A stretch of 64,000 nt of DNA, taken from Helicobacter cetorum. Lineage in GTDB: Bacteria; Campylobacterota; Campylobacteria; Campylobacterales; UBA6016. Position numbers and translations under genes: made by a program. Of the stretch, positions 6,899 to 62,482 are shown piece after piece. The notes beneath the pieces were generated by a model. The model did no database searches and had not been told where the DNA came from. It saw only the letters and a program-made list of their open reading frames with translations. Position 1 is the first letter of the stretch, and every line of letters begins with the position of its first letter. The stretch covers positions 94,942-158,941 of the forward strand of contig DZAX01000001.1 of the NCBI GenBank assembly GCA_022729705.1. The letters run 5' to 3'.

Positions 6899-7366
6899 AT
6901 GATAGAGAGACGAATAATATCTGTTGAAGTAGTCAACGAACACGGCGTACTCGCCCGTATAGCCGGGCTTTTTGCCGGACGTGGATATAATATAGAGACG
7001 CTCACAGTAGCGCCGATGCCGGGAAGTAACCTATCAAGAGTGACGATAGAGACAAGCGGCAACAAAAGAGTGTTGGAGCAGATAGTAAAACAGCTTCACA
7101 AGCTAATCTCTACATACAAAGTCATAGAGCATGAAGAGATGGTGGAAAAAGAGATGGTGTTGGTCAAAATCCCCTCCTCTGGTTCACTCTCCGACATAGA
7201 AGCTTTATCATCGGCGTATAACGGTAAAATCGTAGACGCTACGGATGATTGCGTAATCGTCATGGCGGCGGATGAGCCAAAGAGAATTGAGGGGTTTTTG
7301 AAATCAGTCAAGAAGTTTTCGCCAAAAGAGATAGTAAGAGGCGGGATAGTCGCTATAGAGAAATAA
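6899..7366 (+). CDS. ilvH: Acetolactate synthase small subunit
   Basis: ACT domain: VVNEHGVLARIAGLFAGRGYNIETLTVAP; directly follows ilvB. Confidence 0.95.
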   Translation: MIERRIISVEVVNEHGVLARIAGLFAGRGYNIETLTVAPMPGSNLSRVTIETSGNKRVLEQIVKQLHKLISTYKVIEHEEMVEKEMVLVKIPSSGSLSDIEALSSAYNGKIVDATDDCVIVMAADEPKRIEGFLKSVKKFSPKEIVRGGIVAIEK

Positions 7367-7438
7367 GAGCGGCAAGCCGCGAGAGCCGTCTGCTGAAGAC
7401 CTCGTTTTGGGCTTTGCCTAAAACGTGAGAATTAATTA
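7366..7438 (+). repeat. Three-hairpin dispersed intergenic element, copy A
   Basis: agagcggcaagccgcgagagccgtctgctgaagacctcgttttgggctttgcctaaaacgtgagaattaatt; homologous to 56222-56292 and to the reverse complement of 61901-61972. Confidence 0.85.
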
Positions 7439-37985: not shown

Positions 37986-38630
37986 ATGAATGGAATTGTG
38001 GAAGCTTTGGCGAATGTAAATGTGATTTTTTATCTAGCGGCGTATCTCGTCGGCGGTATACCGTTTGGGTATCTGTTTGCAAAATATATAGCTGGGGTGA
38101 ATATCAGGGACGCAGGTAGTAAGAGCATTGGGGCGACAAATGTGCTTCGGGTTGTAAAAGAAAAAGACCCGGTTCTCGGTAAAAAACTAGGAGCTATGAC
38201 GCTTGCGGCAGACGCTTTTAAGGCGATTATTCCTTTGGCGGTAGCGGCGTTTATCTTTAAGCTTGATGCATCGGTTTTATGGGGAATGGGTGTACTAAGC
38301 GTGCTTGGTCACTGCTTTAGCCCATATCTCGGATTTGAGGGCGGCAAAGGCGTTGCTACGGCTTTTGGGGCTTTGGTTTTTCTTGCTCCTCTAAATGCGC
38401 TTTTAGCTTTTGTGTGTTGGTTTGCGGCGGCAAAAACTCTTAAAGTCTCCTCTCTATCCTCTCTTGTCGGACTAATAGGGTTGCTTTGTTCTTTTTATCT
38501 GCCTATTCCGGTTATATTTGATGTGGGAAGTATGTCGCCTGTTGCCATTATAGCTATTTTGGTTATCTACAAGCATATTCCAAATATTCTCAGACTCTTT
38601 AGCGGTCAAGAGACAAAGGTTGTAGCGTGA
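37986..38630 (+). CDS. plsY: Acyl-phosphate:glycerol-3-phosphate acyltransferase
   Basis: GGIPFGYLFAK; DAGSKSIGATNVLRV; FEGGKGVATAFG. Confidence 0.94.
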   Translation: MNGIVEALANVNVIFYLAAYLVGGIPFGYLFAKYIAGVNIRDAGSKSIGATNVLRVVKEKDPVLGKKLGAMTLAADAFKAIIPLAVAAFIFKLDASVLWGMGVLSVLGHCFSPYLGFEGGKGVATAFGALVFLAPLNALLAFVCWFAAAKTLKVSSLSSLVGLIGLLCSFYLPIPVIFDVGSMSPVAIIAILVIYKHIPNILRLFSGQETKVVA

Positions 38631-38956
38631 CGATTTTGATAGAAGATTTTTGTTTTGAGTGTATTATTGGAATCATGAAAGAGGAGAGGGTAAAAGCGCA
38701 AAAAGTAGAGATAACGGCGCATATAGGCTATGAGCCAAAAGATGGCGGATTTTTGGATTACATGAAGCTTTGCTCTGAGATAAAAAAAGAGTTTGTTGTA
38801 AAAAAATTTAGACTTCTTGAAGAGGCGGTTATCGGTGTGAGCGAAACGCTAAAATCTAAAAATCCATCAATCTCCTCTATTTATATCAAAATCGTTAAGC
38901 CGGAAGTTAGAGAGGATGCAAAAGTGGGAATAATTTTTGAAAAAAGTTTTATCTAA
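38627..38956 (+). CDS. folB: Dihydroneopterin aldolase-like
   Basis: MTILIEDFCFECIIGIMKEERVKAQKVEI; overlaps plsY. Confidence 0.82.
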   Translation: MTILIEDFCFECIIGIMKEERVKAQKVEITAHIGYEPKDGGFLDYMKLCSEIKKEFVVKKFRLLEEAVIGVSETLKSKNPSISSIYIKIVKPEVREDAKVGIIFEKSFI

Positions 38957-38978
38957 GCTTAAAAAAGTTTAAAATTTC

Positions 38979-38987
38979 TGCTATAAT
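38979..38987 (+). promoter_or_regulatory. Extended -10 promoter element upstream of the response regulator
   Basis: TGcTATAAT, 28 bp before the ATG at 39015. Confidence 0.6.
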
Positions 38988-39014
38988 CGCTAAAAAAATT
39001 TAAGGCAACGATAG

Positions 39015-39695
39015 ATGAGAATATTAGTGGTTGAGAGTGAAACCGCACTAAATAAAATGATAACAGAGGGCTTAAGCGAGCTTGGATACCAAACAGACGA
39101 TGCCGAGAGCATAAAAGACGCTCTATATTTTATAAGTATAAGAAATTATGACTTGATTATTATCAATTGGCTTATGGATGGCGGCGACGTTAGAGAGCTT
39201 ATTGAGACTATAAAAAGAAAATCAAACAGAATGGCGATTATACTTTTGGCGGCAAGAGTCGGTAAAGAAGACGAGATAGACGGGCTTAGAGCTGGAGCCG
39301 ATGATTATCTTAAAAAACCGTTTGATTTTGACGTATTGGTAGCAAGAATCGAGGCTAAGCTTAGGTTTGGCGGGACAAGTATTATTGAGATAGAGGATTT
39401 GGTTATCGATCCAGATGAAGAGAAGACAACCTTCAAGGGTATAGAAATAGAGCTAAAAGGCAAGCCTTTTGAAGTATTGACACACCTTGCTAGACATAGA
39501 GATTTGATAGTCTCAAAAGAGCAGCTTTTGGACGCAATTTGGGAAGAGCCAGAGCTTGTTACGCCAAACGTTATAGAGGTGGCTATAAATCAAATTAGAC
39601 AAAAAATGGATAAGCCGCTTGAAATATCAACAATTGAGACGGTAAGAAGAAGAGGGTACAGATTTTGTTACCCAAAACCAGCCGAAGAGCTATAA
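39015..39695 (+). CDS. hsrA: OmpR-type orphan response regulator, HsrA-like
   Basis: Receiver plus winged-helix domain (RRRGYRFCYP); atypical receiver LIIINWLMDGGDV. Confidence 0.82.
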   Translation: MRILVVESETALNKMITEGLSELGYQTDDAESIKDALYFISIRNYDLIIINWLMDGGDVRELIETIKRKSNRMAIILLAARVGKEDEIDGLRAGADDYLKKPFDFDVLVARIEAKLRFGGTSIIEIEDLVIDPDEEKTTFKGIEIELKGKPFEVLTHLARHRDLIVSKEQLLDAIWEEPELVTPNVIEVAINQIRQKMDKPLEISTIETVRRRGYRFCYPKPAEEL

Positions 39696-39764
39696 AGCGT
39701 AGCTATTGGCAAGTAAGCGTAAATATTAAGTTTTGATTTTGTATAACTTCGCCCTAAGTCAATT

Positions 39765-39945
39765 AGCCGCTTTAGCGGCAGGCACAGGTTAAAATAGCAT
39801 AAAAAAACCCTCAATTCTCCCGCGAATGCGGGTAGCTAGAGCCACCCATCGCCTGTCGGCAATGGGGCCCGGCTGGGGGTTGCAAGGGACATTTATGTCC
39901 CTGCCGTTAATACGGGCTTTGCCCGTATTAACGCATAACATTAAA
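39765..39945 (+). repeat. Mosaic multi-hairpin intergenic element, full-length copy
   Basis: GCCGC-ttta-GCGGC; CCCGC-gaat-GCGGG (39819-39832); CCCATcGCC-tgtc-GGCaATGGG; GGGAC-atttat-GTCCC (39886-39901); GTTAATACGGGC-ttt-GCCCGTATTAAC (39906-39932). Confidence 0.8.
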
Positions 39946-39967
39946 TAAAAACAAAGAGGGTTTAAAA

Positions 39968-40219
39968 ATGGCTCTAATTATAACCGATGAGTGCATAGCG
40001 TGCGACGCATGCGTAGATGAGTGTCCAAATGAGGCGATAAGCGAAGGCGATCCAATATATATAATAGACCCAGACGGATGTACGGAGTGTGTTGGTCACT
40101 ATGACGAACCGGCGTGCGTGGCCGTATGTCCGGTAGACTGTATTAAGCTTGATGCGGACAATCAAGAGACTTTAGAAGAGTTAAAATTTAAGTTTAAACA
40201 TCTACAGAATAAACTCTAA
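39968..40219 (+). CDS. 2[4Fe-4S] ferredoxin (YfhL-like)
   Basis: CIACDACVDECPNEAI and CTECVGHYDEPACVAVCPVDCI. Confidence 0.92.
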   Translation: MALIITDECIACDACVDECPNEAISEGDPIYIIDPDGCTECVGHYDEPACVAVCPVDCIKLDADNQETLEELKFKFKHLQNKL

Positions 40220-40222
40220 TTT

Positions 40223-41689
40223 ATGGCGAGAATAACCGCCGTAATAGACATCGGCTCAAATTCTGCTAGAATGGTAGTCTTTGAAAGGACTAGCAGGTTT
40301 GGCTTTCATCTACTAAAAGAGATAAAATCAAAAGTTAGAATATCGGAGGGCGCCTACGAAAATGGCGGCGCTCTTCAGCCTGAGGCTATAGAGAGGGCTC
40401 TTCACGCTCTTTTAGAGTTTTTGTCGATTGTAAAAGCGCATAAAACGAGAAAAATACTTTGTGTGGCTACATCTGCGGTTAGAGACGCTCCAAATAAATC
40501 AGAATTTTTAGCTTTAGTCAAAAAAGAGACCGGACTTTCCATTAAGGTGATAGACGGACCAAAAGAGGCGTATTTTGGAGCCTTGTCGGCTCTCAATATG
40601 CTCAAGATAGAAGATGGAATAACGGTTGATATAGGCGGCGGCTCTACAGAGATGGCTCTTATCAAAAATGGTAAGATAGAAGATCTTATATCTTTAAATC
40701 TTGGCACCGTAAGGCTAAAAGAGCTTGTATTTGATAAAAAACTCCCGCTTGAAGAAGCGGTAAAATTTGTTAATGTAGAATTATCAAGAGTTCCCGCACA
40801 TTTTAAAAGTAAAACAATCATAGGTATAGGCGGCACAAATAGGGCTTTAGCAAACGCCATTATGGAGATTGAGAACTATCCTATAGACACGCTTCACGGC
40901 TTTGAGTTTTCTCTTAGCGGTCGGCTTGATTTTTTTGATGAAATTATCTCCTCAAAAGTTCAAAAGCTCAAAAACTTTAGAATTAAACCGGATAGATATG
41001 ATGTTATCAGAGAAGGAGTTTTGATTATCCGCTCCGTAATAAGTATTGTGAAAGCTGAGAAAATGATTGCAAGCGGGGTTGGCGTAAGGGAGGGTGTATT
41101 TTTATCAGACCTTTTGAGAAACCAAGGCGGCAAATTTCCAAAAAACTTTAGCCCAAGCCTTAGAAGCTTGGTCGATAGATTTTCTCTTTTAGACGACTCT
41201 TCAAGACGTATAAATACTATCTCAAAAGCTCTTTTTAAAGTCTTACAACCTGTCCACAAGCTTGACGATAGTGAGTTGTTTTATTTGGATACAGCGGCAA
41301 AGCTCCTTAATATAGGGATTTGTCTAAACTTCTATAGCCACAGATACCACAGTCATTATCTAATACTAAACAACCTTGATTACGGCTTTACTCACTTAGA
41401 TAAGTTGCTTATATCTTCAATCGTAAAATATCACGGCAAAAAATTTGCAGGATTAGACGACGACGTATTTTTTGACACCTTAAAACCGCATGAAGAGAAA
41501 ATTAAATGGTTAACATCGATTATCTCCATTGCCGAAGCCCTCGCCGTCGATAGGTCTGAGGCAAAGATAGAGTTTTTATTCGAAAAAAATACTATAGTTA
41601 TAAAAAGTGAAAAAAGACTCTATCTCGCGGAAGAAAAACTAAAAGCCTTACTTAAAGGTAACGGTCTAAATTTTAGATTTGAGACTTAA
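40223..41689 (+). CDS. ppx: Exopolyphosphatase / Ppx-GppA phosphatase with C-terminal HD-like region
   Basis: AVIDIGSNSARMVVFE; TVDIGGGSTEMALI; IGIGGTNRAL; 488 aa. Confidence 0.88.
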   Translation: MARITAVIDIGSNSARMVVFERTSRFGFHLLKEIKSKVRISEGAYENGGALQPEAIERALHALLEFLSIVKAHKTRKILCVATSAVRDAPNKSEFLALVKKETGLSIKVIDGPKEAYFGALSALNMLKIEDGITVDIGGGSTEMALIKNGKIEDLISLNLGTVRLKELVFDKKLPLEEAVKFVNVELSRVPAHFKSKTIIGIGGTNRALANAIMEIENYPIDTLHGFEFSLSGRLDFFDEIISSKVQKLKNFRIKPDRYDVIREGVLIIRSVISIVKAEKMIASGVGVREGVFLSDLLRNQGGKFPKNFSPSLRSLVDRFSLLDDSSRRINTISKALFKVLQPVHKLDDSELFYLDTAAKLLNIGICLNFYSHRYHSHYLILNNLDYGFTHLDKLLISSIVKYHGKKFAGLDDDVFFDTLKPHEEKIKWLTSIISIAEALAVDRSEAKIEFLFEKNTIVIKSEKRLYLAEEKLKALLKGNGLNFRFET

Positions 41690-41706
41690 GCTTATACTCT
41701 CTCTTC

Positions 41707-41792
41707 TGTCGGCAATGGGGGGGGTGCAAGGGATATTTATGTCCTTTGCCGCCAATGCCGGCTTTGCTCGTATTGACGTAATAGTGTTAAAA
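41707..41792 (+). repeat. Mosaic multi-hairpin intergenic element, truncated copy
   Basis: ctgtcggcaatggggggggtgcaagggatatttatgtcctttgccgccaatgccggctttgctcgtattgacg, homologous to 39853-39933; overlaps the bamA stop region. Confidence 0.72.
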
Positions 41793-44000
41793 TCTAGTCC
41801 CTATCGTAAACTCGATATTTGATGTCTTATCGCCTGTTTTTTGATTTAGCGGTTTTGCGTAGATAATTTGTATAGGACCCATAGGTGAAAACCACTCAAG
41901 AGCCACGCCCGTTCCCATTCTTGTATTATCTGTGATACTTGAGCTTCCTATCATGCCGTAGTCAAAGAAAAACGAACATCTCATTTTTGCCTCAGTAATA
42001 AGCGGCAAGCTAAGCTCTATACTATTTGAAAATGTCTTTGTGTCGCCAAGCAGATAGTCTTGCGAGTCTTTTGCTCCGATGGAGCTTGATTGATACCCTC
42101 TTACCGATGACAAGCCGCCCATATAAAGCTTACTTCCTCTGGCTATCTGTTTGTCGTTAAATATCCAGCCAAGTCTCGCTTTGTATCTCAAGATGGCGTC
42201 ATAATCTATCAAATCCTCAAAACCATAGTAATATCCAAATTTGCTAAAGCTTTTTACATACTTCTCTTTGCCGCCAATACCCGCATACTCTAGGCTTGTT
42301 GAGGCGTTAAAACCTTTTCTTGGTGTATAGTAGTCATCGGTATTGTCGTAGCTTAAAAATGGGGTTACTGATGACTTTGTCGTGTTTTCCAAATCTTGAG
42401 GTCTTGTGATATTGGTTGAAATCTCCGAGTATTGAATGGTGTTGTACTGATATGAGGCGCCGCCGGATAAGTATCTAGTAAGCTGTTTACCCGTTGTTAC
42501 GCTTGCTCCTTTTGTCTCTTCTGTGTAGTCATAAGAGATATATTTCCTTGAAAATATATTGCCCCCAAGCGAATATTTTCCATCCCTAAGGTGCGGGTTA
42601 AAAAGAGATATATCAAAATTTGACTGCTTACCTGATAGTTCGACGTTAAAGCCTAGGTTTAGACCGCTGCCAAATATGTTTTTGTCGTTAATTCCGGCGT
42701 TAAAGATTAGACCGTCATAAGAGCCGTAGCCACCGCCTACAAGCACATTTCCGGTTGGAGCTTCTTTGACTTTTACGATAATATCCATTTTTTCTACCGA
42801 GACTCTTTTTTCATCTACGGTTACGTCTTCAAAAAATCCTGTTCGCTTAAGAGTGTTTTTTGAGTCTGTCATGTCTGTAAGGCTATACAAATCGCCGGGA
42901 GCCAAATACATATCCCTTCTTATGACGCTATCTAAAGTTCTATTATTTCCTGAGATAATAACATTGTTAATAAATACTTTTTGCCCCGGTTCCACCATAA
43001 AAACTACAGACGTTGTGTGTGTTTTTTCATCTTTTATAAAATCAGGCGTTACTCTTGTAAAAGCGTAGCCTTTATCGGATACTTTGTATTTGATAAACTC
43101 CATATCTTTTCTTAGTTTATCAACGTTAAATACGGCGCCTTTTTTAAGTTTTAGCTCCGCTAAAAGCTCTTTTTCATCTACTACCTGCTCTTTTTGCTCG
43201 ATTTTTATTTCTGAGATTTTATACGCTTCGCCCTCTGAAATTTTGTAATCAAGCGTAGCTGTGTAGGTATTAAAATCAGCACTCAAAAAAGGTTCGCTAA
43301 CCGTTGCGTCCAAAAAGCCGTTTTGCCTATAAACGTCTTTAATTCTAGCTCCGTCCATACTAAGCTCGTCTAGTTTTAGCTTACCGTCGTTTCTTCCCCA
43401 TAGCCACCCCATCCACTCTTTCTCTTGATTGGCGGCTTGCGAGAGGGCTTTTCTTTTTTTGATTTTTTTGATTCCAAGTGCGTTTAGCTTTTCGATATAT
43501 ATCTTCTCGCCCTTGTTGATAATATATGTGAGTGCTACCGCTTGCCCGTCGTTTAGCTCTTTTTTGTCTGTTTCGATGACGGTGTTAAAGTAGCCCTCGG
43601 ACTCTATATGTTCTATAATAGCTTTTTTGCTTTTTTCAACTCTGTCTTCGTCAAAACTATCGCCTTTTTTTACGCCCAAATTGCTCATATATTTTTCTAT
43701 ATCACCCTCAGATTCTCCGGCAAACTCTATTTTTGCGACTATTGGTTTTTCTTTAAAGCGGTACGTCAAGATTCCGTCTTGTTCGTCAACCCAAATATCC
43801 TCAAAGTATCCTTGCGAGTAAAAGTTTAGTATCGATTTACCAATTCTGTCGTAGCTAAATTGATCGCCTTTGCGCACGCCGCTAAGCTCTTCCGCCATCA
43901 TCGGCGATATTCTGGAAAGCCCTTCGTATTTCACGTCTTTTATCGTTAACGCATAGCTTGCAACGCCTGCCGCCAACATAATTGCGGAGAATTTTTTCAA
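41787..44000 (-). CDS. bamA: Outer membrane protein assembly factor BamA
   Basis: POTRA repeats; RNTGFFEDVTVDE-type motifs; barrel GGLSSVRGYQSSSIG; C-terminal FTIGTRF. Confidence 0.93.
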   Translation of the reverse strand: MKKFSAIMLAAGVASYALTIKDVKYEGLSRISPMMAEELSGVRKGDQFSYDRIGKSILNFYSQGYFEDIWVDEQDGILTYRFKEKPIVAKIEFAGESEGDIEKYMSNLGVKKGDSFDEDRVEKSKKAIIEHIESEGYFNTVIETDKKELNDGQAVALTYIINKGEKIYIEKLNALGIKKIKKRKALSQAANQEKEWMGWLWGRNDGKLKLDELSMDGARIKDVYRQNGFLDATVSEPFLSADFNTYTATLDYKISEGEAYKISEIKIEQKEQVVDEKELLAELKLKKGAVFNVDKLRKDMEFIKYKVSDKGYAFTRVTPDFIKDEKTHTTSVVFMVEPGQKVFINNVIISGNNRTLDSVIRRDMYLAPGDLYSLTDMTDSKNTLKRTGFFEDVTVDEKRVSVEKMDIIVKVKEAPTGNVLVGGGYGSYDGLIFNAGINDKNIFGSGLNLGFNVELSGKQSNFDISLFNPHLRDGKYSLGGNIFSRKYISYDYTEETKGASVTTGKQLTRYLSGGASYQYNTIQYSEISTNITRPQDLENTTKSSVTPFLSYDNTDDYYTPRKGFNASTSLEYAGIGGKEKYVKSFSKFGYYYGFEDLIDYDAILRYKARLGWIFNDKQIARGSKLYMGGLSSVRGYQSSSIGAKDSQDYLLGDTKTFSNSIELSLPLITEAKMRCSFFFDYGMIGSSSITDNTRMGTGVALEWFSPMGPIQIIYAKPLNQKTGDKTSNIEFTIGTRF

Positions 44001-44067
44001 TGTTAAACCTTTTAAAAAGCGCTTGATTTTAGTTGATTTTAACCTTTTTTGTTTTAAATCCTTGACT

Positions 44068-44076
44068 TGATATAAT
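44068..44076 (+). promoter_or_regulatory. Extended -10 promoter element upstream of tyrA
   Basis: TGaTATAAT about 14 bp upstream of the ATG at 44090; leader would be very short. Confidence 0.45.
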
Positions 44077-44089
44077 TTTACTTAAAAAC

Positions 44090-44929
44090 GTGGTGCGAAT
44101 GGAAATAGCTATTGTAGGTTTGGGGCTAATGGGCGGCTCTATGGGGCTTGCGTTAAAAAAAATCTCGCCCATATATAGGGTGTACGGTTGCGATAACAAT
44201 GAAGAGCACTCAAAAAAAGCGTTAGAGCTTTTTTTGGTTGACGAGATAGTTGATTTAAGCGAAGCTTTTACAAAAGATATTATCGTATTGGCGACTCCGG
44301 TTGATGTGTGCATAAAAATATTAAACGATTTTAGACCGACAAACGAGTTTCAAACTATTATTGATTTGGGAAGCACAAAAGAGAAGATTTCAAACGCCAT
44401 AAAAGCGGATATACGCAAAAACTTTGTAGCCGCTCACCCGATGACCGGTACTGAGTATAGCGGACCAAAAGCCGCCAAAGAGGGGCTTTATAAGGGTGCT
44501 ACGGTTGTTCTTTGCGATTTGCAAAAAAGCGGAACGTATCAGGCGGATATTGCAAAAAGCATTTTTGATGCTCTTGGTATGAAAATTATAGAGATGGATT
44601 CAAATACGCACGACGCACATGCGGCGCACATAAGCCATCTACCTCACATAATCAGTTTTTCACTAGCGGGTGCTGTGCTTTCAAAAGAGAATCCACAAGA
44701 TATTCTCTCAATGGCGGCGGGCGGTTTTCGCGATATGAGCCGCTTAGCAAAGAGTAGACCGGACTTGTGGACGCAGATATTTAGGCAAAACAAAGCAAAT
44801 CTGCTTGAATCAATGGAGCTTTTTTTGCAAAATCTAGGCGAATTAAAATCTATGATAGAGTCTGAAAATTGGTCAGAGCTTGAAAAAAAGCTAGAAAAAG
44901 CAAACGAATTATATTTAATTTTTAAGTGA
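44090..44929 (+). CDS. tyrA: Prephenate dehydrogenase
   Basis: [45 protein letters not shown]. Confidence 0.9.
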
Positions 44930-44936
44930 GAAAAGC

Positions 44937-45812
44937 ATGAGACACCTTTTGACGACTACGGATTTTGATTATGACGAAGTAGGGGGGATACTGGCTAGGG
45001 CGGCTACGTTTTTGGAGGCGAAAGAGGATGAAAAAAAGCATACAGGCAAGCTTTTGATTAATATCTTTTTTGAAAACTCCACAAGAACAAGAAGCTCTTT
45101 TGAAGTTGCGGCAAAGAGGCTAGGGCTTGATGTGGTAAACCTAGACGTTGGCGCCAGCTCTACAAGCAAGGGCGAGACGCTTTACGATACGGCGGCAAAT
45201 CTTGACGTAATGGGACCATCCATCATAGTAGTCCGCCACAAAAGCTCCGGCGTGCCGCAAATACTCTCCAAATACGTCTCATGCTCCATCGTAAACGGCG
45301 GCGACGGCTCTCATGCGCACCCGACGCAAGCTCTTTTGGATCTCTTTACGCTAAGGGCAAATCTTGGCGAGTTAAAGGGCAAAAAAGTGGTAATAGTCGG
45401 CGACGTCAAAAACTCAAGGGTCGCAAACTCCAATATAGAGCTACTGACGAGATTTGGCGTAGAGGTCGTCTTGGCTGCTCCGCCTCACTTTATGCCAAAA
45501 ACGGAGCTTAAAAAAACATACAATCTCAAAGAGGCGATTGAGGGGGCAGACGCTATTATGAGCCTTCGCACGCAAACAGAGAGGCATGAGACGGTTAGTT
45601 ATGCGAGTCTCAAAGATTATGCGTCTGATTTTTGCATCACCGAGGAGCTTATAGAGGGCAGAGATATTATCGTGCTTCACCCGGGACCCGTGCATAGAAA
45701 TATCGACATAACGGACGGCGTACTGGCTGATTCTAGGTGTAAAGTATTGGAGCAGGTGCGAAACGGAGTCGCTATTAGAATGGCGGTTATAGAAAAACTA
45801 ATTAACGGATGA
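44937..45812 (+). CDS. pyrB: Aspartate carbamoyltransferase catalytic subunit
   Basis: [43 protein letters not shown]. Confidence 0.95.
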
Positions 45813-46750
45813 GGGAGAGGATAAACTCTCTTGCAGGCTCTAAAACACCGTTTTTGTTTTGCCTTGACTATGAGGCTAAAGACGGTTTTGTGTATCCGCT
45901 AGAGTCTTTGCCTGACAATATTGCTTTTGAGATAGGCGGACGCCGTCACGGACGAGTTAGCCTAAAACAAACCCCAAAAATAGTAGCCAAAACTCCGATA
46001 AGCGCCAAAAACTACGCCTCAAAAATAACCGCCATAAAAGAAAAAATAGCAAAAGGCGACGTCTATATGGCAAACCTCACAGCCCCGACATTCATTGAAC
46101 TTGTCGGCGACTTGGAGGATGTTTTTTGCGCCTCTAAGGCTTATTTTAAACTGCTTGTAAAAGATAGGTTTGTCGTCTCATCGCCTGAGGCGTTTGTGCG
46201 AGTGGAAGAGGGCAAAATCTTTACTTATCCGATGAAAGGCACAGCCGCATTTATTGACGAAACAAGTGCGCAAACTCTACTTAATAGTCAAAAAGAGTTA
46301 GCCGAACATACGATGACCGTGGATTTGCTCCGAAACGACCTCTCAATCGTCGGCGAGCGCGTGAAAGTTGATAAGTTTCGCTATCCGCTTATGATAGAGG
46401 CAAACGGGCAAAAGCTGATACAAACGGTCTCAGAGATTAGCGCCGATTTGCCGCTTGATTTTATGCTTGGCGACACTATTTTTGCGCTTTTGCCGGCGGG
46501 TTCTATCACGGGGACGCCAAAGAAAAAGTGTGTTGAAGCGCTAAAGAGTATCGAGGGGTACGATAGAGGGTTTTTTTGTGGTGTGTTTGGGTATTTTGAC
46601 GGAAAAAGTATGCAAAGCGCCGTATCAATCAGGTATATCGAAAAAACAGAAGAGGGCTACGTCTACAAAAGCGGCGGCGGAATCACATACGATAGCGACG
46701 CAAATGCCGAATATGCGGAGATGCTACAAAAGGTCTACCTTGCTTTTTGA
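45809..46750 (+). CDS. pabB: Aminodeoxychorismate synthase component I-like
   Basis: [69 protein letters not shown]. Confidence 0.9.
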
Positions 46751-47390
46751 GACTATTCTTTGCAAAGACGGGGCGGCGCAAAATTTGGAGTATCACGAAA
46801 GACGGATGCTTGAGTCAAGCGGCAAAAAGTTTGACCTCTCTTTTTTGCGTCCGCCGATTAGTGCTTTATGGCGTTGTAAACTTATTTATGCCGAAACCAT
46901 CATATCCGTAGAGTTTACGCCATATATCAAATGCGAGATAAAAAGCCTGACGCTTATCAAATCAAATATAAGCTATTCAAGTAAGTTTGTCGACAGAAAA
47001 GAACTCGACGCGCTATTTGAGGCGAGGGGGGCGGGCGATGATACGCTAATCGTCAAAAATGGACTCATTACAGATACGACAATCGCCAATGTCGCTTTTT
47101 TAAGTGAAGGCGATATATGGCTAACGCCAAAAACACCGCTTCTGAAAGGAACGATGAGGGCGAAGCTATTGGCGGATGGGTTTTTGGAGGAAGCGGACAT
47201 AGAGATAAAAGATTTACCGTCATTTAAAATGGCGGCTATAATGAATGCTCTTAGGGGGTTTGAGGTTTTGGGATATTATGCTAGAACGCCCGGCGTATAC
47301 AACGCCAAAGCAATTTTTCTCATTTTTTCTCCCCCAAAGCCCAATAATACGGCTTCCTATGATGATTTGCTACAGATAATATCAGGATAG
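46740..47390 (+). CDS. pabC: Aminodeoxychorismate lyase-like (class IV aminotransferase)
   Basis: Likely TTG start at 46740 ([24 protein letters not shown]), in frame with ORF 46578-47390; DDTLIVKNGLITDTTIANVAF; TPLLKGTMRAKL. Confidence 0.8.
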   Translation: MLFETILCKDGAAQNLEYHERRMLESSGKKFDLSFLRPPISALWRCKLIYAETIISVEFTPYIKCEIKSLTLIKSNISYSSKFVDRKELDALFEARGAGDDTLIVKNGLITDTTIANVAFLSEGDIWLTPKTPLLKGTMRAKLLADGFLEEADIEIKDLPSFKMAAIMNALRGFEVLGYYARTPGVYNAKAIFLIFSPPKPNNTASYDDLLQIISG

Positions 47391-47616
47391 TATCCTCTGT
47401 TGTCGTATAAAATAGATTGTATGGGAATCTATGAAGTACACATTTTCTGATATTGTCTCTGGCTATCGGATATAGTTTTGGAAATCGGATAATTCTATCC
47501 ACGGTTTCTTTAATGTCTTGTTTAAATCTATCGCCTAGGTTTTCCTGCTGGAGGTTGTAGTACTCTTTTGCATCTTCCATCTTTCGAAAATGCAAACTCT
47601 GTAAAATTGGCTTCAA
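47320..47616 (-). CDS. parE: ParE-like type II toxin
   Basis: DAKEYYNLQQENLGDRFKQDIKETVDRIIRFPKLYP...CVLHRFPYNLFYTTTEDTILILSVANHHRKPYYW; overlaps the antitoxin gene. Confidence 0.85.
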   Translation of the reverse strand: MKPILQSLHFRKMEDAKEYYNLQQENLGDRFKQDIKETVDRIIRFPKLYPIARDNIRKCVLHRFPYNLFYTTTEDTILILSVANHHRKPYYWALGEKK

Positions 47617-47816
47617 GCACCAAATACTTCGTTATATGAGAGAGTTTTTAGGCTACCACTTCGATACGCTTTTGCTCTTTTGATGGACTCTACTATCCAC
47701 TGCTCGTCTATCTCACCATCTGGCTTGTCGAGGCTTTGGACTAGATTTTCTATCACTATATATCTATCTTGCGGTTTTAGATGTAGTGCTTCTGAGATTA
47801 TTTCATTTATGCTCAT
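47613..47816 (-). CDS. Addiction-module antitoxin partner of ParE-like toxin
   Basis: 67 aa; ALHLKPQDRYIVIENLVQSLDKPDGEIDEQWIVESIKRAKAYRSGSLKTLSYNEVF. Confidence 0.82.
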   Translation of the reverse strand: MSINEIISEALHLKPQDRYIVIENLVQSLDKPDGEIDEQWIVESIKRAKAYRSGSLKTLSYNEVFGA

Positions 47817-47884
47817 GGCTAGCTCCTTTTTTGCTTATTATATCTCAAATTAGGGCTTTATTTCGTTTTAACTACCACAAAAGA

Positions 47885-47922
47885 TGTATAATACCCCAAG
47901 AAAAACAAACAATTTTGTTTAA
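47885..47922. mobile_element. Solo IS-end fragment
   Basis: tgtataataccccaagaaaaacaaacaattttgtttaa nearly identical to the IS end at 9222-9261. Confidence 0.65.
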
Positions 47923-47946
47923 AGAAGAGTTTACTACAATCTTTAG

Positions 47947-48897
47947 ATGAAAATTAAACACTTATTTTTAAAAGTTTTTCTCTCTTTTGTCTTTGCGGGG
48001 CTCGGCGCTCTAGGTTATGTCTACGTCTACTTAAACGAATATTTGCAGGCTCCGGCTGTTATTGTAATAGAAAAAGGCTCAAATCAAAAGGCTATTGAGG
48101 CGTTAAACGAGGCGTCTATCGGTACAAATATTATTGATATAGCGGTCATTAAATATCTTGGCGGCGCAAAAAGCGGAGCTATAGCCACAAACGGCGTAAA
48201 TAGTAGAATAGAGCTTCTCAAAGCTCTTGTTGCGGGAAAGCAAAAAAACAGTGCTTTGACTTTGATACCAAGCGAAACAACGGAAGTTTTTTTGCAAAAT
48301 CTGGCAAAAAAAGAGGGGCTTAGTCTTGAAAAGTTGAAAGCCGCATATGCGAGGCAAACAAATCAACCCGAGGGCAAGCTATATCCGGAGACGTATAGTT
48401 TGCCGTTTGACGCCGATGAGGAGAAAATAATAACAGAGCTTTTTGCATATTCCAAAAAAGAGTATGCTGCGTTACAAAAAAAGTACGGCGCGACTGAAGC
48501 AGAGTTTGACGAGAAGCTAATTATTGCGTCTATTATAGAAAAAGAGGCGGTAAACCATCAGGAGATGCCGATAATCGCCTCAGTGATTTATAATCGCCTA
48601 AAAATAAATATGCCGCTTCAAATGGACGGAGCGTTAAATTATGGACTATATAGCCACCAAAAAGTAACACCTGAGCGGATTAGAACCGATGAGAGTAGTT
48701 ACAACACATACAAGTACAAAGGTCTACCGCGCTATCCGGTATGCGCGCCCTCGAGAGAGGCTATAAACGCTGCGTTTAATCCCTTAAGCACTGATTTTTT
48801 ATACTTTGTAAAGGGCGTTGACGGCAAGCATAACTTTTCAAATAGTTACACTGAACATAAAATAAACATTAGTGATGTGAAGAAAAGTAACAGATAG
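47947..48897 (+). CDS. mltG: Endolytic transglycosylase MltG
   Basis: LIIASIIEKEA; IIASVIYNRLKINMPLQMDGALNYGL; SSYNTYKYKGLPRYPVCAPSREAINAAFNP. Confidence 0.93.
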   Translation: MKIKHLFLKVFLSFVFAGLGALGYVYVYLNEYLQAPAVIVIEKGSNQKAIEALNEASIGTNIIDIAVIKYLGGAKSGAIATNGVNSRIELLKALVAGKQKNSALTLIPSETTEVFLQNLAKKEGLSLEKLKAAYARQTNQPEGKLYPETYSLPFDADEEKIITELFAYSKKEYAALQKKYGATEAEFDEKLIIASIIEKEAVNHQEMPIIASVIYNRLKINMPLQMDGALNYGLYSHQKVTPERIRTDESSYNTYKYKGLPRYPVCAPSREAINAAFNPLSTDFLYFVKGVDGKHNFSNSYTEHKINISDVKKSNR

Positions 48898-48989
48898 GCT
48901 ATTTTTAGCCTAATATGCCATTTTTTTAAAACTACTTAATCTCTATAGTATAAAAAACTGTTACAATTATACTCGCACACGCAAATTAG

Positions 48990-51233
<2,244 letters not shown>

Positions 51234-51237
51234 TTAA

Positions 51238-51266
51238 GTGCCGCTCCTTTTGGGGCGGCTTTCTAA
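51238..51266 (+). terminator. Terminator hairpin after icd
   Basis: GCCGCTCC-tttt-GGGGCGGC then TTTCT. Confidence 0.65.
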
Positions 51267-51334
51267 AACATTTTTTTGTGTAAAGTTTAATCAAATGATT
51301 TTAGATTGGACTTTAGACAAAAGATACAAACAAA

Positions 51335-51435
51335 ACCTCAACTCTCCCGCGAATGCGGGCAGCTTTAGGGGGTCGCAAGGGACATTCGTGTCCCTGCCAC
51401 AGAGGGAAGCTTCGCTTCCCTCTGTGTATAACATC
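51335..51435 (+). repeat. Mosaic multi-hairpin intergenic element, copy lacking one module
   Basis: cctcaactctCCCGCgaatGCGGGcagct...gcaaGGGACattcgtGTCCCtgc; distal stem CACAGAGGGAAGC-ttc-GCTTCCCTCTGTG replaces the stem seen at 39906-39932. Confidence 0.8.
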
Positions 51436-51454
51436 AAAATGAAAAAGGCGAAAC

Positions 51455-52408
51455 ATGAAAGGAAGAAAAGTAACGGTTGTAGGTGCTGGAAATGTTGGTT
51501 CTACTATTGCGTTTATCCTTGCTATGAACGGAGTTTGCCATGAGATTTGGATGCGCGATAATAAAGTAAACGTAGCAAAAGGCAGAGCACTTGACATGAG
51601 CCAAGCTGCGCAAGCCGGAAGAAGTCACGCCGTAGTTAGAGCGGCGGAGACTCCAAAAGATATAGCCGGTAGCGATATAGTCGTTATAACAGCGGGAAGC
51701 CCTAGAAAACCGGGTATGAGTAGAGACGACCTTTTGTTTATTAACGCAGAAATTATAAAATCTATATGTTTGGATATTAAAGAGCATGCTCCAAACTCTA
51801 TAATAATCGTTGTGTCAAACCCGCTTGATGCCATGGTTTACACAGCGGTGCGGAGTTCTGGTTTTGATAGAGACAGAGTGCTTGGAATGGCTGGAATACT
51901 TGATTCGGCGAGAATGGCTAGCTTTATCCAGCAAAAATTGGGCTATGGGGCAGGGCAGATCAGGGCTTCTGTGATGGGTGGACACGGTGATGATATGGTG
52001 CCTCTTCCTAGGTATTCGACCGTTGCGGGGGTTGGGCTTTATGACCTTTTGACGCCTGAGGAGATAGATGAGATTGTTTATCGCACAAGACATGGCGGAG
52101 CTGAGATAGTGGAGCTATTGCAAACCGGTTCGGCGTACTACGCTCCCGCAAAAGCTACGGCTATGATGGTTGAGTCTATCATGAGAGACACCAAGCAGAT
52201 TCACCCTTGCGCCGTTATGATGAACGGCGAATACGGCTACAACAATATCGTAAGCGGCGTGCCAATCATGATAGGTGCAAAAGGCGTTGAAAAGGTGATA
52301 GAGGTCAATCTAAACGACGATGAAAAAGCGGCGTTTGGTCGTTCGGTGGCAAGTGTGCAAACGTTGGTTGACAAGTTAGAAAACGCAAACTTCTTTGGGG
52401 GGCTATAA
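51455..52408 (+). CDS. mdh: Malate dehydrogenase
   Basis: [87 protein letters not shown]. Confidence 0.95.
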
Positions 52409-52410
52409 AA

Positions 52411-53799
52411 ATGGAGTATAGAGTAGAAAAAGACACAATGGGCGAAGTGTGCGTACCAAAAGAGGCGATATGGGGCGCACAAACGCAAAGAAGCCTTGAA
52501 AACTTCAAAATAGGCGTTGAGAAGATGCCCTCTGAGCTTATATCGGCGTTTGCGGTACTTAAAAAAGCGTTGGCAATTACAAACCACGAGCTAGGCAAAA
52601 TGGACGAGGTCAAAAAAGAGGCTATCGTAAGAGCGTGTGAGGAGATAATGGAAGGCAAGCTAGAGGGCGCATTTCCTCTATCTATCTGGCAAACCGGAAG
52701 TGGCACACAGACAAATATGAATATGAACGAAGTAATAGCGCATAGAGCGATGCAAAATATGGGTCTTGACTTCACAAAAGAAAAAGCGATACATCCAAAC
52801 GACCACGTCAATATGTCTCAAAGCTCAAACGACACGTTTCCTACGGCTATGCATATAGCGACGGTGGTTGAGGTTGAAGACAAACTTTTTGCGGCGTTAA
52901 GCCATCTAAGAGTGGTGTTGGCGGACAAAATGACGGCGTTTGACGACATCGTAAAAATCGGCAGAACGCATTTGCAAGACGCAACGCCTCTTACTTTAGG
53001 GCAAGAGTTTAGCGGATATGTCGCTATGCTTGACAACTCAAAAGCACAGATAAAAGCTAATTTGGAGTTTGTAAGAGATCTTGCAATAGGCGGTACGGCG
53101 GTGGGTACGGGGCTAAATGCGCATCCAAAACTCTCAGAGACGGCGGCGAGAGTAATTAGCGAGATTACAGAGAAGAGATTTTTTAGCGCCCCAAATAAAT
53201 TTCACGCACTTACAAGCCACGATGCGCTTACGAGTCTTCACGGAGCCCTTAAAGGTTTGGCGGCAAACTTGATGAAAATAGCAAACGATATTAGATGGCT
53301 CGCATCGGGCCCTAGATGCGGACTCGGCGAGCTAACTATTCCCGAAAACGAGCCGGGAAGCTCTATTATGCCGGGAAAAGTAAACCCTACGCAATCAGAG
53401 GCTATTACGATGGTGGCGTGTCAAGTAATGGGCAACGATGCGGCGGTCGGTTTTGCGGCATCACAGGGAAATTTTGAGCTAAACGTATTTAAGCCCGTGA
53501 TAATTTACAACGTGCTTCAAAGCGTAAGATTGCTAACTGATTCAATGATTAGTTTTGCCGATAATTGCGCAGTTGGAATAGAGCCAAACGTTGAAAAAAT
53601 TACAACATATCTAAATGACTCTTTGATGCTGGTAACAGCTCTGAATCCTCATATAGGTTATGAAAATGCGGCAAAAATAGCCAAAACGGCGCACAAAAAC
53701 GGCTCCACCTTAAAAGAGGAAGCTGTAGGGCTAGGGCTTCTTACGCCCGAACAGTTTGACGCATGGGTTGTCCCCATCGATATGACAAATAAATCTTGA
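52411..53799 (+). CDS. fumC: Class II fumarate hydratase
   Basis: [63 protein letters not shown]. Confidence 0.96.
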
Positions 53800-56221: not shown

Positions 56222-56292
56222 AGAGCGGCAAGCCGCAAGAGCCGTCTACTGAAGACCTCATTTTGGGCTTTGCTCAAAATGTGAGAATTAAC
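56222..56292 (+). repeat. Three-hairpin dispersed intergenic element, copy B
   Basis: agagcggcaagccgcaagagccgtctactgaagacctcattttgggctttgctcaaaatgtgagaattaac. Confidence 0.85.
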
Positions 56293-56323
56293 TATGATGT
56301 TTTAAATAATAAGAGGAGATGAG

Positions 56324-61896: not shown

Positions 61897-61900
61897 TTTA

Positions 61901-61972
61901 ATTAATTCTCACATTTTGGGCAAAGCCCAAAATTAGGTCTTCGGCAGACTGCCCTTGCGACTAGTCGCTCTT
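61901..61972 (-). repeat. Three-hairpin dispersed intergenic element, copy C
   Basis: Reverse complement agagcgactagtcgcaagggcagtctgccgaagacctaattttgggctttgcccaaaatgtgagaattaat aligns end to end with copies A and B. Confidence 0.85.
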
Positions 61973-61978
61973 GGAATT

Positions 61979-62482
61979 TCATTTTTTCTCTATTTTTTCA
62001 AAATTCTCGACAATCTCCGCATCTATTGTGGTTGTGTCCCCTCTTTGCATCGGCGTTTCGCGTTTTCGTCTTATGTTGTTTTGGTTTAAAAAGTTAAAAT
62101 TAAAAGGACGAAATAGTGTGTAGCCCAGCGTCATAAATATTATGCCAATGGCCGCTTCATACATATCAAGCGACTCGGCGGAAAGCGACAAAAGATATGA
62201 GCCAAACAGCAAAGCCCCTCTATTTGCCAGAAGTGTCGAAAAAAATATTCCCGCAGCACCTTTGAATAGTCCCGTAAAAAGAGTTGAAGTGAGCGCTAAT
62301 TTGAGCCCTTTTTTGAGAGCCAAAAACGCTATGAGGGCAAATGAGAGCGTAATAGCGCTTGTAAGCATAAAATATGAAAATAGCATATTGGAGGCAAAGA
62401 TTGCAGAATTTACGGCGTCTTGCTTAAATATAAATGAAAAAATAAAGCAGAAAAACGCAAAATATAATCCAAAGTATCTCAT
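61979..62482 (-). CDS. Hypothetical integral membrane protein
   Basis: 167 aa with several hydrophobic segments and a charged C-terminus. Confidence 0.6.
   Translation of the reverse strand: MRYFGLYFAFFCFIFSFIFKQDAVNSAIFASNMLFSYFMLTSAITLSFALIAFLALKKGLKLALTSTLFTGLFKGAAGIFFSTLLANRGALLFGSYLLSLSAESLDMYEAAIGIIFMTLGYTLFRPFNFNFLNQNNIRRKRETPMQRGDTTTIDAEIVENFEKIEKK

Follow-up and report, generated by a model that had tools for sequence, protein, structure and literature searches.

According to our analysis, the intergenic hairpins that recur at three places of the window, the 64,000-nucleotide stretch of Helicobacter cetorum DNA that was analyzed, belong to a family of non-coding, non-autonomous mobile repeats which, in full-length form, is probably a MITE, a reading that assumes no host function. 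In relatives, a unit of ~120 bp bounded by the terminal inverted repeats CTGAYSTTACGC...GCRTAACATCAG would insert into AT-rich intergenic DNA and duplicate 7 bp of it, a duplication in line with a DDE-type transposase acting in trans, the putative mover. The parts of the unit would be a left-end hairpin H0, the hairpin H1, an optional H2, a linker, H3, and H4. That left end would mostly be missing from the window's genome, where a shorter H1-(H2)-H3-H4 unit would have multiplied; we infer that this short form is the full unit minus its left end.

Window copies and architecture of the family

The features of the three window copies are given below with the evidence for each.

39766..39779, + strand: small hairpin GCCGC-TTTA-GCGGC upstream of copy 1 (sequence; inside the segment missing from the empty site of congener G001)
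39806..39944, + strand: copy 1, long form H1-H2-H3-H4-right end (sequence, blastn, folding; empty in congeners G001 and G002)
39819..39832, + strand: copy 1 H1, CCCGC-gaat-GCGGG (CCCGCgaatGCGGG) (sequence)
39845..39866, + strand: copy 1 H2, optional module CCCATcGCC-tgtc-GGCaATGGG (sequence; ~13 copies in the same genome, present also in congener G002)
39875..39881, + strand: copy 1 core linker GGGGGTT (near-invariant across families)
39882..39904, + strand: copy 1 H3, GCAAGGGACatttatGTCCCTGC, with one bulged A (sequence)
39905..39933, + strand: copy 1 H4, distal stem CGTTAATACGGGC-TTT-GCCCGTATTAACG of 12 to 13 bp (sequence, folding, covariation)
39933..39944, + strand: copy 1 right end GCATAACATTAA, equivalent of the relatives' right terminal repeat GCGTAACATCAG (TAACAT conservation in the same genome; relatives)
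41706..41786, + strand: copy 2, 5'-truncated relic with the H2 3' arm, H3, and a decayed H4 (sequence, folding; empty in G002, shorter in G001)
51332..51437, + strand: copy 3, short form H1-H3-H4 (sequence, folding; empty in G001 and G002)
51346..51359, + strand: copy 3 H1 (sequence)
51375..51397, + strand: copy 3 H3 (sequence)
51398..51426, + strand: copy 3 H4, swapped perfect 13-bp stem CACAGAGGGAAGC-TTC-GCTTCCCTCTGTG (sequence, folding; unique stem)

Copies 1 and 3 are as the sequence-only reading had described them: they share H1, H3, and the distal stem in this order, every hairpin lies where it had been noted, copy 3 passes from H1 to H3 without the CCCAT module H2, and its perfect distal stem is unlike that of copy 1 in sequence. 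They fold with z scores of -5.3 to -6.6 on either strand, none of 200 shuffles being as good. The 41.7-kb copy, instead, was described correctly as lacking H1 but not as carrying the CCCAT module, since it starts within H2 and retains the 3' arm only (GGCAATGGG, 41711-41719). With a single H2 arm, no H1, and an imperfect H4 (z = -2.4 versus shuffles), copy 2 is a truncated relic, that is, a decayed fragment and not a case of selective loss of the first module. The neighbors of copy 1 are genes like those for a response regulator (39015-39695) and a ferredoxin (from 39969), and copy 3 lies between genes resembling those for isocitrate dehydrogenase and malate dehydrogenase. In copy 1, a pairing of the linker GGGGGTT with AACCCTC (39806-39812) is predicted. 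The small hairpin upstream of this copy stands where full-length relatives have their left-end hairpin H0, of which it would be the homologue.

In the window's genome of 2.19 Mb, the repeat occupies at least 60 dispersed, intergenic places. Searching that genome by blastn with copy 1 matched 55 pieces, of which 44 are main copies; the total adds ~15 more detected with a covariance model or a short-form query, as well as window copies 2 and 3. The unit, of ~95 to 135 bp, runs H1, optional H2, H3, and H4 around the almost invariant linker AGCTTYAGGGGG, which is conserved nearly without change across families. Its short-form consensus in this genome is ACTCTCCCGC-loop-GCGGGTAGCTTYAGGGGGTTGCAAGGGACATTTATGTCCCTGCCGNNAATACGGGCTTTGCCCGTATTNNCGYRTAACATCAA, and in the long form, found in ~13 of the copies, a module of ~36 nt with H2 stands in place of TYA after TAGCT. 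H2 is the mark of a recurrent subfamily, long copies being present also in congener G002, and the module loss of the sequence-only reading is better understood as the coexistence of two recurrent subfamilies, one having H2 and one lacking it, together with truncation. Information content falls just upstream of ACT|CTCCC and just downstream of TAACATCAA, which sets the limits of the unit in this genome; the TAACAT portion of the right end is kept in the copies examined and information drops sharply beyond it.

No coding content was found in the repeat, and no Rfam model was matched at its gathering score, the hits being at chance level only. The description of the hairpins as a mobile and mosaic family of intergenic DNA, distinct from coding sequence and from any known IS, is supported. 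In the published literature on repeats of this bacterial group, we found nothing on the family and no name for it, and we read it as an old MITE family, small and non-coding, that in relatives looks like a miniature transposon. At one locus of the window's genome (L034, contig C16:15880-16145), three copies lie head to tail with a period of 87 bp, joined via ATACCATCGAATGGTA. A second repeat family, with a GGGCTTTGCCY hairpin resembling H4, is present in the window at 7366-7438, 56222-56294, and 61899-61988, and is directly joined to the multi-hairpin repeat in L016/L043 (contig C41 of the same genome).

Empty sites and full-length relatives

When window positions 38600 to 52500 were aligned to congeners G001 and G002, whose flanks are ~71 to 79% identical in nucleotides, the copy 1 site measured 29 bp in G001 (209 in the window) and 25 in G002 (213 in the window), and the copy 3 site 38 bp (versus 156) and 40 bp (versus 154), respectively; the empty sites of both copies were also aligned base by base. 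The copy 2 site is empty in G002 (32 versus 112 bp) and shorter in G001 (144 versus 234 bp). Gaps at all three sites in two congeners mean that the repeat has moved. A fourth locus lies between two genes that we named ilvE and purU from the flanking sequence: the window's genome holds the short form there and one G002 contig the long form, whereas a different G002 contig and G001 have an empty site. The copy in the window's genome (L027, 1441-1600) is flanked by an imperfect direct repeat of ~17 bp (AAAGATAACTGCTTTAT / AAAGATAACGGTTTTAT), which is present once at the empty sites of these two congeners and is longer than the 7 bp of relatives. The filled and empty versions within G002 are L263 and L265 (contigs C16 and C83); G002 is a metagenome-assembled genome and the two contigs may represent two strains.

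Two complete genomes, G005 and G040, come from another family (distant genus g4) and have the same core within a unit of ~120 bp with terminal inverted repeats. This unit opens with CTGACGTTACGC, whose left-end hairpin has GCGTAACGTC, and closes with GCGTAACATCAG. We counted the end motif 78 times in G005 and 46 times in G040; its reversed control occurs once in G005 and never in G040. Target duplications of 7 bp accompany the unit: 12 of the 26 g4 copies with both ends recognizable have 6 or 7 of 7 bases matching just outside the ends (permutation mean 0.8, maximum 5 in 2000). A second MITE of 239 to 269 bp with two large hairpins, found in G005, G040, G066, G079, and G204 (e.g., L159-L167), has ends CTGATGTTACGCAGTATA...TATACTGCGTAACATCAG identical to those of the ~120-bp unit and mostly perfect 7-bp duplications (TTAAAAA, TTTATCA, TTATGAA, TTCCAAA, CTTGTAA, TTATAAA, TTAGGAA, TTTAAAA), and these ends are therefore transposition-competent there. 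Pattern searches of 399 genomes and genus g4 for an autonomous element with the same ends returned only MITEs and micro-elements of 24 bp, and the loci inspected in five genomes had no transposase open reading frame beside matching ends; the autonomous partner may be located elsewhere or lost. The micro-elements, CTGATGTTRCGCAGTATACATCAG and variants, are exemplified by L240 near 1501 (G079) and by L247, L252, and L259 (G040); that of L240 has the perfect 7-bp repeat TTTGAAA on both sides and lies upstream of an mdh-like gene.

The window's family derives from a unit like that of g4, since in the congener copy L215 (G002) the left end CTGACCTTACGCAC is joined to the H2 form. In the window's own genome, the left terminal repeat could be recognized in no more than 3 of 32 copies, and exact duplications of at least 7 bp (3 of 33, versus 1.2 by chance) were not above chance. 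One could suppose that the unit without terminal repeats has, in the window's genus, a spreading route of its own in which the folded single strand, and not inverted repeats, is recognized, an idea that we deem distinctly unlikely; if true, one structured core would exist in two guises, a DDE-type MITE and a repeat guided by its structure. Against the MITE reading itself stand the rare left repeats and chance-level duplications of the window's genome, the ~17-bp flanking repeat at ilvE-purU, which looks like an imperfect duplication of a length other than 7, the failure to find a transposase with matching ends at the loci inspected, and an internal linker whose conservation equals or exceeds that of the ends. 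The interior of a MITE is expected to drift, and such a conserved linker is unusual.

Distribution across the order Campylobacterales is patchy. The covariance model matched 30 of 130 genomes drawn from the order at E <= 1e-4, and strong matches (E below 1e-10) fall in seven families as labeled by the search tool (f1, f4, f6, f7, f10, f17, and f20). In these, a genome has from 1 to at least 33 copies, 33 being the most that the scoring counts; elsewhere, the weaker matches may be due to chance. The part shared with a Sulfurimonas metagenome genome is only a short core around an exact match of 22 bp. Searches of plasmids and phages gave no relative.

Origin of the paired stems

The stems stay paired from copy to copy. 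In a set of 26 copies that spans several families, standard pairs make up 98% of cells, and 11 of 18 pairs have changed on both sides; the covariation score is 0.451, compared to 0.192 for shuffled copies, a control limited by the relatedness of the copies, and to 0.06 to 0.15 with slid partners, which retain that relatedness. H4 exhibits the same strong covariation within the window's genome. The H4 of copy 3 changed en bloc: its stem occurs at this sole place in the genome, allowing up to 3 mismatches, whereas the adjoining 31-bp core is still 90% identical. Furthermore, the H4 pairs 37-61 and 38-60 have undergone 11 and 15 double changes with zero G-U intermediates.

When replication switches template at inverted repeats, it generates perfect stems and also restores pairing within them (PMC8794818). 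The block swap in copy 3 and the missing wobble intermediates are as indicative of such template switching as they are of selection. Of the interpretation proposed from sequence alone, the mosaic mobile hairpin family holds, but a stem that was replaced and is again perfect cannot for this reason be taken as strong evidence of a role for the hairpin. Taken to its extreme, stem perfection would be purely mutational, template switching homogenizing the arms of hairpins that are of no use to the element itself. The swap, the two highly variable pairs, and the published mechanism all agree with this possibility, which bears on the upkeep of the stems and does not conflict with the MITE reading, but H1, H3, and H4 are retained in several families despite differing letters, which makes some selection likely, at least for propagation; we consider the purely mutational account doubtful. 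Template switching would contribute to stem maintenance, the stems probably remaining paired through template-switch repair of inverted repeats as their letters change, with some additional selection possible.

A structured RNA under selection, such as a leader, an attenuator, or an mRNA-stability hairpin that is mobile by happenstance, would account for the strong covariation with its far lower slid-partner controls, for the linker conserved across families, and for an excess of G-T over A-C on the + strand (37:10 in the window's genome, 42:5 in genus g4). This excess, however, comes mainly from a few columns, without which the ratios become 16:9 (p = 0.11) and 9:5 (p = 0.21), and was not relied upon for + strand folding; as proof of an RNA role, the strand asymmetry was rejected. 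The copies stand in both orientations to their neighbors with no clear bias (rough open reading frame calls), no promoter- or terminator-like site above shuffles was detected in the region of copy 1, the same genes occur in congeners without the repeat, and Rfam offers no match. We therefore hold a selected RNA element to be unlikely. Where a neighboring gene is read towards the repeat, the right end often abuts its stop codon (within 10 nt in ~15 of 18 such cases, by a rough open reading frame call), a placement that is partly built in because the reversed right end supplies TGA or TAA.

Re-paired perfect stems thus call for caution before they are taken as proof of function. With dozens of differing, fully paired H4 stems on one core, the family is a natural test of how perfect stems originate, and strain data could separate stepwise compensation from one-step template switching.

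Comparison with known repeat systems

GTAG- and CGTC-tagged REP palindromes are both listed for the related Sulfurovum sp. NBC37-1 (PMC3733652) and share with our family extragenic hairpins, complementary stem variants, and many copies. Mobilization of REP/REPIN-type palindromes by a Y1 (RAYT) HUH transposase, via single-stranded DNA and without target duplication, would fit the high copy number, the intergenic sites, the bulged H3 hairpin, the GTAG string found between H1 and H3 in many copies, the RAYT-like genes of the window's genome and relatives, and the short form of that genome, which has neither terminal repeats nor 7-bp duplications. Yet none of 22 Y1 genes in nine genomes has a family copy within ~1.5 kb, the RAYT-like genes of the window's genome are surrounded by other repeats, and G001 and G002 contain family copies with no Y1 gene above the limit. 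GTAG follows H1 and lies ~14 nt before H3 instead of standing at the foot of a single 6- to 13-bp stem, many g4 copies have GAAG, and the 7-bp duplications of relatives do not suit HUH transposition. Y1/RAYT was rejected as the mobilizer for want of linkage to the 22 genes, and this origin is very unlikely. Beyond these points, the repeat differs from REPs as that source describes them by its ~95 to 135 bp and several hairpins; a partial overlap with the Sulfurovum repeats is possible, the two being set apart by description only. The window's genome has three Y1 transposase genes (L044, L045, and L046, on contigs C48, C17, and C72), one IS200-like with an interrupting TGA and two RAYT-like amid repeats of their own (GGGTGTCAGGCACTCTTTTATG; GGAAGTGGGRCTTTAGTCCCGC).

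Pneumococcal BOX elements are boxA-boxB-boxC modular composites with tandem boxB arrays (PMC3049150). Compared by architecture only, they resemble the repeat in being modular composites with an optional internal hairpin module, a predicted stem-loop RNA, and intergenic dispersal (PMC3049150); phylum and sequence differ, and the repeat has zero or one H2 in place of tandem boxB.

From MITEs, the family departs by its strongly conserved, structured interior and by the lack of the left terminal repeat in most copies of the window's genome. It shares with them a short, non-coding, intergenic, multi-copy form and insertion polymorphism, terminal inverted repeats in genus g4 and in the congener copy L215, and, in g4, a target duplication of fixed length, 7 bp.
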